64,000 nt of DNA from Owenia fusiformis (lineage: Eukaryota > Annelida > Polychaeta > Sabellida > Oweniidae), in assembly GCA_903813345.2 (NCBI GenBank), contig CAIIXF020000002.1:286001-350000 (forward strand), read 5' to 3'. The notes under the pieces are model-generated. The model made no database searches, was not told the DNA's origin, and worked only from the letters and a program-made list of their open reading frames with translations. The translations under genes and the position numbers were made by a program. Positions 9,700 through 64,000 of this stretch are shown here, in pieces. Every line of letters starts with the position of its first letter. Position 1 is the stretch's first letter.

Positions 9700-10592
9700 C
9701 ATACAAAAGTGCACATTGTACATACAGTTAGAAATGGTCACAATATGAAATCAACATTGGCAATATAGCTAGGGTTGATCACATATTATTCACACTGTCC
9801 GTACAGTTAGAGATGATCACATAGTTTGAAATTGGACATTGGTCATATAACTAGAATTAATACCTATGAATATTGCACATTGACGATATATTGGTAGTTC
9901 GAGTTGATGACATAATAATTGCATCACATGTTAAAATTCTCACCGTCCATACGGTTAGAGTTGGCAACATTCAACATTGCACCTTTTGCTTTCAATTAAG
10001 GCTGAACACATACAGAAGTGCACACTATCCATACAGTTAGAAATGGTCAGACGTAAAATTGTGCATTGTCCGTACAGTTAAAGTTGATCACCTTGGATGC
10101 ATTTTACATGATTCTTACATGATTCTTTGACCGCAAGCAAGATTTTTACATGATTTTTTGACCGCGAGCAAGATTTTTACATGATTTTTGACCGCGAGCA
10201 AGATATTTACATGCTTTTTCGACCGCGAGCAAAATTTTTAAGTAATTTTTTTACCGCGCGAGCAAGATTTTTTCATAATTTTTCTGACCGCGAGCAAGAT
10301 TTTTATCCTAAATATTAGCTAGATTGTAGTCAGCTTAAATGATATTCGCGGTTAAAACAGCTAAAATATTACGCAAACGTATCAAATGCATTTGCTTTGC
10401 GGTCATACAAAAATACACTCCTTACCATTATAATTAAAACGACCACGTTCAAATATGCACATTGTCCTTTCGGTTAGAGCTGACGTTCAAAATAAATTCT
10501 CGTATTTACAAACACAGTTGATCAAGTTAAAATTGTATATTTCATTTACAGTTAGAGTTGATTAAAATCCAGACTTCACTTTGTCTTTATAG
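9700..10592 (+). repeat. Degenerate ~50-60 bp array ending in the vWA splice acceptor
   Basis: About ten or more diverged copies of a unit like CATTGTCCATACAGTTAGAG followed by TTGATCACATA can be read near 9715, 9765, 9800, 9840, 9890, 9945, 9995, 10025, 10065, 10450 and 10545. The last unit reads TTTGTCTTTATAGCTAGGGC then TGATTACATA, and contains the real 3' splice site (AG at 10591-10592) and first codons of the vWA exon. The upstream units therefore look like decayed copies of an acceptor plus exon start. A different ~33-bp array (TTTTTGACCGCGAGCAAGA, about six copies) interrupts it at 10110-10300. Confidence 0.55.
10110..10305. repeat. Short tandem repeat GACCGCGAGCAAGATTTTT
   Basis: About six imperfect copies of a ~33-bp unit containing GACCGCGAGCAAGATTTTTA and a T-rich stretch. 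No coding capacity. It lies within the larger degenerate array upstream of the vWA exon. Confidence 0.8.
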
Positions 10593-11079
10593 CTAGGGCT
10601 GATTACATACGACAAATACGTATACAATGAGTTTTCTTTGAATACGTACAATAACAGTGCGGCTGTTGTAAAACATATCCAGCAAATGGATATTCATCAA
10701 TTCAATTCTAATCGGTTAAGATGTGGAACACGAACAGATCTAGCCCTTATTGAAGCAAAAGACACCCAGCTTACAGGCGCTGAAGGAGTGAGAGATGCAT
10801 TGGGAATAAAGAGACCACCTATTCAGAAGGTGGTCCTTGTGATAACAGATGGTGCCACGTTTCCGCCATCAAATTCAGGCATCACCAAGAAGGTAGCAGC
10901 AGATCTTAAAAACGAATTAGGGGCACTTGTATTCGTTGTTAGTTTACCAAACGCTAAGCAAAAAGATTATAGCGCTGAGTTTTCTGCTATTGCGAGTCAG
11001 CCAACTTCCATGTTCTTAATGGATATTGAATTCGATGAATTGCTGGATTCGTTGGAATCTATATTGTTGAAAATCTGCG
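10593..11079 (+). CDS. vWA-domain exon, probable N-terminal part of LRR receptor copy 1
   Basis: The exon starts after the acceptor at 10591-10592 and ends before GTAAGT at 11080, in phase 1. It encodes 162 codons of a von Willebrand factor A domain from the second strand onward (LGLITYDKYVYNEFSLNTYN). The second MIDAS threonine region (CGTRTDLALIEA) and the third MIDAS aspartate (VVLVITDGA) are present, and the closing helix ends in LLKIC. The first MIDAS motif (DxSxS) must lie on an upstream exon that I cannot find in the window. The last phase-1 base joins the next exon at 11770 to give CDRCPIGWYEC, so vWA runs directly into a CTLD. vWA domains usually bind extracellular protein ligands through a metal ion. 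The exon itself is intact. Confidence 0.75.
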
Positions 11080-11299
11080 GTAAGTACTGAATTAATAGAA
11101 ATATTTTAATTCCAATAAAATATAACACGCAGTATCTAAATTAACGTTTATATTACAGTTTATGCTATAAATCTGATAACAAATTCCCAGTTGTGATCAT
11201 TTTCTATAACTTAAAGTAGTCTAGCGCAATCTTTTCTAATTTGCTTTTATAAAACCGACATTAGATGTCCCATAAATCTACTTGACATGGAAAACAAAT

Positions 11300-62300: not shown

Positions 62301-62301
62301 G

Positions 62302-64000
62302 ATGAAAATGAAACTAGTCAAACAAACAAAAAGGAAACTCCAAAGATGCGAACAAGAGATCATATTAAAGATTATCTACAGCTAACTAAACAAGACAATC
62401 AGACTGAGAAAATCAGGACGATTCTCAACAGGTTGACAGATATCTACCATACGTCTATCCAGCCCATGGCAGAGGCATATAGATTCAATGATATTCATAA
62501 AAACATTATTACAGGTAAAAAGTATAATGTTTTGGATGTTCTGTTTTGAAAACCAAACAGATTCATAGTCTGTCAGTGTTTGATTTCAATCTACCCTTGC
62601 TTTTTTAATGACAGTACATAAAATTAATTAGTTTTGTATCATAAACTCAACATTATCTTAGTCTTGTACCAGGTTTGGTAACCTATTTATCAAATTAAGC
62701 CCAAGTGGAGATGAGCTGTACAGATGATAAGGTGCTTTAAATATGACCATTCTAAATTCTAAAACATCCCTTTTACAATGTGTAATTGAGCTCATAATTG
62801 CAATGATTGATACTCAAGGTCACTGATCACTGATTCCAGATGGTGAGATGCATTCTAAGCCACTGCTGTTATTCCTTGGGCCATGGAGCACTGGAAAATC
62901 ATCAATGATAAACTACCTTGTTGGCATTGAGGACTCTGATCATAAACTTTACACAGGTATACTAACTAGAAACACAGAACTACATGTAGAAGTTAAATTT
63001 TCAAAAACAATTTTCTAAACCACCTTTTACATGTAAATTTCAAATATGACATCACTTTGACTGAATTCTGAATATTAGTGATGTTAATTAAGCTTATTTC
63101 TACTTGAATATAGCCTATTACATTAATTATAATATTTTTGTAATGCAGGTGCTGAACCAACTACATCCGATTTTACTGTAGTGATGAATGGACCAAAGTA
63201 CAAGGCAGTGGAGGGAATTGTCCTTGCCACAGACAGCAATAGACCCTTCTCAGCATTGGAGAAATTTGGACAGGTACATGTCAGCATGTTGTTTAAGTTT
63301 GTTCTAAAATGTTAACTGATGAATGGACCAAAGTACAAGGCAGTTGAAGGAATTGTCATTGCTTCACATAGCAATAGACCAACACAGGAGAAATTTGGAC
63401 AGGTACAGGGTGTTTGCTATGGAGATATCCCCAAATAAGATGTGTGAGAATGGTTCCATGGTACACTCATGTTCTGTTAAGCATATTTGTTCAGATGAAT
63501 CACTACAACTAAATATAAATTGGTTCTGCTCATCTTGAGTCTGTTTGTATTTTCAGGGATTTTTAGAGAAATTCCAAGGTGTGGAAATGCCTCATAAGAT
63601 TTTAGAAAAGGTGACAATAATGGACACTCCTGGTATCATAGAAAATAGGAAACAGCAAGAACGCGGGTATCCATTTAACGAAGTCTGCCAATGGATGATA
63701 GATCGTGCAGATCTTATATTTGTCGTATTTGACCCGACAAAACTAGATGTCGGGAAAGAACTTGAGATGTTATTTCAACAGTTGAAAGGGAGAGAATCCC
63801 AGATCCGAATCATATTAAACAAGGCTGATTCTATCTCCCAACAGGAGTTAATGCGAGTTTATGGAGCGTTATTCTGGAGTCTCGCCCCACTGATCAATGT
63901 GACAGAGCCCCCTAGGGTCTACACAGGGTCATTCTGGGGTAGAGCATTTAAAGACAACACAAACCATCAATTGTTTTATGATGAAGAGATATCCCTCCTG
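62302..64000 (+). CDS. SRL: Sarcalumenin (EHD/dynamin-type GTPase), partial
   Basis: Exons 62302-62514, 62840-62956, 63149-63273 and 63557-64000 (open at the window end) join in phase (1, 1, 0) to give about 299 residues. The sequence has an EHD-type N-terminal helix ([31 protein letters not shown]). The P-loop is GPWSTGKSS near residue 84, the switch-I TTSDF near 115, G3 DTPGI near 175, and G4 NKAD near 240. The [18 protein letters not shown] and [11 protein letters not shown] blocks are what I know of vertebrate sarcalumenin. In vertebrate muscle it is a calcium-binding glycoprotein of the sarcoplasmic reticulum lumen that stabilises SERCA. Its role in this animal is inferred. The exons upstream of 62302 (acceptor in phase 1) and downstream are missing. 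EHD1-4 is the main alternative, but the GPWSTGKSS loop and the MPHKILEKV and RGYPFNEV blocks favour SRL. Confidence 0.92.
63316..63402 (+). pseudogene. Duplicate of the 3' end and donor of a sarcalumenin exon
   Basis: GATGAATGGACCAAAGTACA, AGGCAGTTGAAGGAATTGTC and GAGAAATTTGGACAG|GTACAG repeat the last ~90 bases of the exon at 63149-63273 with its donor. It has no acceptor. Differences include a shortened stretch in place of CCCTTCTCAGCATTG, which removes codons. Confidence 0.9.

Follow-up and report, generated by a model that had tools for sequence, protein, structure and literature searches.

Short tandem duplications that span an exon–intron border lie beside exons in all five multi-exon gene models of the 64,000-nucleotide stretch of Owenia fusiformis DNA analysed here (the window), as an earlier note on this DNA had claimed. 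These structures are probably ordinary minisatellite-type tandem duplications, with units of about 30–160 nt, that happen to include a border. As the border duplications described as mirages of gene structure in amphioxus have the same structure, the finding represents a new, abundant occurrence of a known kind.

Gene models of the window

The analysed genome (498 Mb) comprises 12 chromosome-sized contigs, and the window lies on its 35.8-Mb contig, C2. The five gene models gave 41 annotated splice borders (Table 1). Pfam matches to VWA, LRR_8, 7tm_1, Dynamin_N and EHD_N were found in the genes of the window; VERL_C matched one ZP-type exon and another ZP-type exon had no match. The CTLD exon of receptor 1 gave only a sub-threshold lectin-like Pfam match, and the labels CTLD, sarcalumenin and ST13 C-terminus are putative ones based on the translations as read. 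The CTLD-like exon of receptor 1 (11,770–11,953) contained a stop in the expected frame, which may mean that this gene copy is defective or that the model of the exon is incomplete. The sarcalumenin/EHD-like gene appeared to be nested in an ST13 intron, on the opposite strand. A reading of ST13 as a truncated pseudogene was rejected, as its HipN exon was found on the same strand 12–13 kb past the window end.

Table 1. Gene models and repeats at or near their exons, numbered from the first letter of the window
Feature	Position (bp)	Strand	Remarks
Gene model 1: vWA-CTLD-LRR-7TM receptor (receptor 1)			Presumably a single gene
Gene model 2: second LRR-7TM receptor (receptor 2)			
Gene model 3: ZP-type gene			
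Gene model 4: ST13, C-terminal part		−	
Gene model 5: sarcalumenin/EHD-like gene			
Degenerate minisatellite resembling vWA exon acceptor (10596/10597)	9705–10609	+	Weak
Receptor 1 LRR/7TM acceptor mirage	13818–14325	+	5 units of ~100 nt; real acceptor 14280/14281
LRR + 7TM exon, receptor 1 (real)	14281–16259	+	Pfam LRR_8, 7tm_1
Receptor 2 homologous acceptor mirage	29416–29583	+	1 decoy + real acceptor 29537/29538
Receptor 2 last exon (C-terminal tail), tandem duplication	36278–36474	+	105 nt, in frame, wholly exon-internal
ZP exon 6 piece, adjoining exon 3 donor	45047–45079	+	33 nt, 88%
ZP-type gene exon 4 acceptor	45344–45455	+	1 decoy + real acceptor 45419/45420
ST13 acceptor mirage	57514–58106	−	7 units, period ~87 nt; real acceptor 57573/57574
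ST13 donor case (marginal)	59667–59765	−	Two ~48-nt units; donor 59761/59762
Sarcalumenin/EHD-like exon tail + donor	63182–63407	+	Real donor 63273/63274; copy donor 63403/63404

Border-crossing repeats in the window

The window was compared with itself locally, and a border was scored as crossed when a repeat extended at least 4 nt to each side of it. Six of the 41 borders were crossed: the acceptors 14280, 29537, 45419 and 57573, the donor 63273 and, weakly, 10596. Five were crossed when at least 6 nt were required on each side. On alignment, all five strong units proved to combine intron sequence, the AG or GT and a portion of the exon, with a single copy in each array running on into the exon. 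This agreed with the earlier description of repeated units that cross the border with one copy keeping the exon. Both donors and acceptors were thus hit.

In receptor 1, every unit comprised a pyrimidine tract, an AG and ~45 nt from the start of the exon; four decoys lie upstream of the real acceptor and the last of the five units alone continues into the exon. The receptor 2 decoy, at 29437/29438, was 82% identical over 68 nt and the ZP exon 4 decoy 86% identical over 44 nt. The decayed ZP exon 4 and exon 6 pieces that had been reported were also found, those of exon 4 (23–33 nt) at 45751, 45899 and 46391. The ST13 acceptor has six decoys; the exon (57485–57573) is continuous with the unit that starts at 57514 and with no other. 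The copy of the sarcalumenin/EHD-like donor was 83.5% identical over 97 columns.

The two remaining cases of the seven originally named were less secure. The copy of the vWA acceptor, 824 nt upstream, showed 69% identity over 81 nt with a score of 37; three shuffled windows averaged 0.3 hits of at least 34, and the case was lost at a threshold of 38. The ST13 donor unit (85% over 48 columns) is mostly intronic and reaches 3–4 nt into the exon; it was left out of the six crossed borders.

A dispersed mobile element was considered as the source of the copies and set aside. In a search that skipped very common words, the ST13 unit matched its own locus and no other place in the genome, and so did the sarcalumenin unit; such an element is therefore unlikely.

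Receptor-family arrays

The earlier note had treated its cases as independent, which did not hold for the two receptor acceptors. The receptor 1 acceptor unit was also found, among the matches listed, beside other gene copies on contigs C2 and C12. Sixteen receptor gene copies were read, 2 in the window and 14 elsewhere; 12 of them had at least one border-crossing decoy (from one to ~34) and four had none. Arrays of up to ~34 decoys keep the pyrimidine tract and the AG. In the C2 clade, the unit ended 44–46 nt into the exon in the four arrayed copies (one unit at 30). On C12 the unit ends lay at 60–64 nt in L023, L025 (one unit at 34) and L032, and at 46–50 or 63 nt in L022; the single-decoy copies ended at 38, 38, 51 and 56 nt.

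The shared unit ends place the two window receptor cases in one array family, and they were not counted as independent. Shared ancestry would most simply account for the pair, which is consistent with a single founding event in the C2 clade; the arrays on C12 suggest a further event or reshaping.

Frequency of border-crossing repeats

Local repeat covered 18% of the window, and by this raw coverage 7.4 of the 41 borders (about 7–8) were expected to be crossed (circular-shift P = 0.65). Because the copies of one array inflate raw coverage, it was kept for comparison alone; counting each unit once is the fairer null. Counted once per unit over all noncoding positions, 2.0 crossings were expected against the 6 seen (P = 0.016, post hoc). 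With five crossed borders the expectation was 1.9 (P = 0.045), and with introns only it was 1.4–1.6 crossings. Whether the cases are far more than chance would give depends on the null that is chosen.

As the window had been chosen for the feature, and two of its six cases share ancestry and one is weak, the genome was sampled elsewhere. The sample consisted of 92 other stretches (loci) around exons of three unrelated families: myosin, kinesin and kinase. For myosin, 72 of at least 92 matches were used, 12 being left out as part of a mutually exclusive exon cluster on contig C9 and 8 as lying outside the chosen stretches. For kinesin, 90 of at least 144 matches were used; an exon array on C2 (18 matches) was represented by its last copy, matches rich in stops or lying beyond the chosen stretches were left out, and locus L049 ended with no match. 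The 60 kinase matches, of at least 144, were a non-random choice picked for compact exon hits. Borders were predicted from Pfam match ends and splice-site scoring, not from RNA. The 222 exons gave 444 possible borders, of which 405 passed a border score of 1.5 (130 for myosin, 165 for kinesin and 110 for kinase); one doubtful border, L007:399, was kept in the main counts.

Fifteen of the 405 borders were crossed, with 10.9 expected (P = 0.14); raw coverage would give 42.1. With another method of detection 15 crossings were found and 10.3 expected (P = 0.10). By family, the crossings were 4 of 130 in myosin (4.6 expected), 7 of 165 in kinesin (3.8) and 4 of 110 in kinase (2.3). An earlier border finder, applied to myosin only, gave 4 of 128 against 4.05. 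Donors were again among the crossed borders (L001, L053, L054 and L076). Local repeats were found at 3.7% of borders, 2.5–2.7% of intron positions and 0.56–0.57% of exon interiors, which therefore carry repeats 4.5–4.7 times less than introns do. These rates agreed with the suggestion that the copies are tolerated fossils of slippage: copies that cross a border behave as intronic sequence does, and the interiors of exons are protected.

The other suggestion, a mutational process that targets splice borders and duplicates them preferentially (through DNA breaks coupled to transcription or splicing, for example), fared less well. The count against intron positions, which had been proposed as its test, came out slightly above expectation and not significantly so: the ratio of observed to expected was ~1.4, with an interval of 0.75–2.2 that includes 1 as well as a two-fold excess. 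Across 18 settings the ratio ranged from 1.28 to 1.60, always above 1. P fell below 0.05 in one setting (0.044; score 50, margin 4) and stayed above it in 17, and the bootstrap interval included 1 in all 18. By our reading, 3 of the 15 crossed borders involve near-whole-exon copies, and the 12 partial ones that are left compare with 10.9 expected. Slower decay of pairs in which one half is constrained could also give a small excess. The post hoc excess in the window and the receptor family, where 12 of the 16 copies have an arrayed acceptor and the unit ends vary from clade to clade, would suit a border-directed process. With 15 crossings seen against 10.3–10.9 expected, such a process is not needed, and we consider it unlikely.

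Crossed borders were more frequent in the window (6 of 41) than in the sample (15 of 405; Fisher P = 0.008). After the two receptors were merged and the vWA case dropped, the comparison became 4 of 40 (P = 0.08). The excess of the window over the once-per-unit expectation and over the sample rate counts against plain tolerated slippage, as do the ratio above 1 in every setting and the single P of 0.044.

Some sample loci carried larger duplications. Near-whole exon copies were seen at L015 and L084. On contig C9 (37986009–37994334), at least 12 tandem matches to one muscle-myosin exon (profile positions ~27–81) resemble clusters of mutually exclusive exons. The head of a kinesin exon with its acceptor (L062, C2:23266359–23269174) occurred 18 times among the matches listed, with a period of 159 nt and 97.8% identity; this array is a young, large mirage. 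The first coding exon of ST13 (HipN) with its donor (L108, C2:362019–363016), 12–13 kb beyond the window end, was followed by seven further copies, the last truncated; these have a period of ~147 nt and are 93% alike.

Origin of the duplications

Under the preferred reading of ordinary tandem duplication, slippage or unequal exchange would duplicate short segments anywhere. Where a duplicated segment straddles a border, one copy would be joined to the exon and the others would lie within the intron, and splicing with the exon-joined copy would yield the old mRNA. Border-crossing duplications would persist, spread and shrink as intronic repeats do, in line with their observed rate. Duplications inside exons would mostly be removed by selection, which would account for the observed deficit. 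Tolerated duplication alone would in this way yield partial exon copies with a splice site, one of which keeps the exon. The occurrence at donors as well as acceptors supports this reading, as do the variation of the receptor unit among the 16 copies, from no decoy to ~34, and the exon-internal duplication of receptor 2, which keeps the frame. The same structures in amphioxus, where RT-PCR suggested normal splicing in the available text of the reports (PMC3087553, PMC3902484), also speak in its favour.

Splice sites of the decoys

Retention of the splice dinucleotide was examined in 150 decoys from 25 arrays, 81 of the decoys coming from the receptor family. One further case of the 26 (L037) yielded no decoy; the vWA, ST13 donor, L015 and L084 cases lay outside this set, and L028 was left out of the decoy tests as a near-copy of L027. 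The AG or GT was kept in 143 of the 150 decoys, against 122.9 expected from other adjacent pairs, so decoys are not purged.

This retention could mean that selection maintains the decoy sites, whether as acceptors or donors that compete or buffer or as alternative mini-exons. By array, the dinucleotide was lost in 3 of 25 against 8.3 for random pairs (P = 0.01), and variable columns made up 2 of 40 in the dinucleotide compared with 91 of 377 in nearby intron, 172 of 1166 in farther intron and 181 of 1020 in exon. Contrasts that include the real copy are inflated, however, as that copy cannot lose its dinucleotide. When decoys were compared with each other, 3 of 18 arrays varied, with 5.7 expected (P = 0.11); once the doubtful L007 border was removed, this became 2 of 17 against 5.5 (P = 0.04). 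Periods of 87, 90, 126, 147 and 159 nt are multiples of 3, but those of 100, 119 and 127 nt are not, and the receptor-family arrays are related and hence not independent. Greater retention of the decoy AG or GT than of neighbouring pairs is thus a suggestion and not a robust one. It was not taken as proof of function, because the fixed real copy biases the contrasts and the decoy-only test was not significant with all arrays. Selection on decoy sites therefore seems improbable to us as an explanation of the mirages, even though the higher retention than at neighbouring positions in two comparisons counts against tolerated duplication alone. There is similarly a slim chance that intact decoy arrays, above all in the vWA/CTLD/LRR/7TM receptor family, may be under weak selection as splice-site buffers or nurseries of alternative exons.

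Assembly quality

The copies might instead be assembly errors, in the form of collapsed or expanded repeats or joined haplotypes. An amphioxus mirage appeared misassembled in a draft, according to the available text (PMC3087553); nothing direct points to this here. Many copies differ by 5–20%, units of unequal length alternate, and separate paralogs on two contigs have homologous arrays whose unit ends are shared. The arrays of L001, L046, L048, L053, L054 and L062, at 95–100% identity, are exceptions and are still compatible with misassembly. As an account of the mirages in general we regard it as very improbable.

Comparison with known systems

The available text of two amphioxus reports describes minisatellite-like border duplications, named mirages, in Adh3, the globins BflGb6 and BflGb9, troponin C and PGBD5, at both intron ends and with units of 10–160 bp; splicing was reported to be undisturbed (PMC3087553, PMC3902484). 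In BflGb6 the copies were 81–100% identical, and many kept the AG or GT, with one copy in the gene (PMC3087553, PMC3902484). The five strong cases and one weak case of the window resemble these mirages, as far as those texts describe them: a tandem unit spans the border, a single copy is continuous with the remainder of the exon, and duplication affects 5′ and 3′ borders alike. Normal splicing was tested there and is predicted here. Copy number in an amphioxus-type mirage may be unstable between alleles or cells; here it ranged across paralogs, from no decoy to ~34. The chromosomes of amphioxus are more numerous than the 12 chromosome-sized contigs of this genome, and its GC content is higher than the ~35% of the window.

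Tandem duplication that crosses a border and includes the parental intron–exon border has been reported as the source of a new intron in a potato RdRp gene (PMC4974935). To judge from the text available, that duplication carries splice signals, as here, but it yields a new intron and piece of exon that undergo splicing (PMC4974935), whereas the present copies lie inside an existing intron. Tandem duplication of whole exons, as in mutually exclusive exons, is likewise local and includes splice sites; those copies are whole with both sites, while the window copies are partial with a splice site on one side, which sets them apart. In paralogs within human segmental duplications, variable internal tandem repeats include minisatellites at exon–intron boundaries that alter gene structure and vary among paralogs (PMC2812944, available text). 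About half of these repeats are coding and new introns are claimed for them; border copies in introns are not described in that text (PMC2812944). In the limited literature searched for mirages of gene structure, only the amphioxus reports were found apart from unrelated hits, and no other border mirages.

New here, relative to the amphioxus accounts as available, are the count against intron positions, giving a prevalence of ~3–4% of sampled borders, and the receptor arrays with up to ~34 decoys; the decoys mostly keep their AG or GT (143 of 150). The prevalence is a measured rate of border-crossing tandem duplication in an animal genome, and it makes what was a curiosity in a handful of amphioxus genes a class that can be counted. 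Such duplications are a reservoir of duplicated splice sites that could give rise to new introns or alternative exons, and they can mislead gene annotation. Any proven use of decoys would bear directly on how introns are gained.

Other repeats of the window

Long minisatellites were located away from annotated exons, at 23497–25347 (94-nt unit, ~19 copies) and at 52416–54213 (109- and 225-nt units). An intron of the ZP-type gene contained tRNA-like sequence (45970–46372) in two ~113-nt copies that were 92% identical. ARAGORN predicted a tRNA-Ser with anticodon CGA at 46023–46094 within this repeat, and the repeated segment is possibly a tRNA-derived element.
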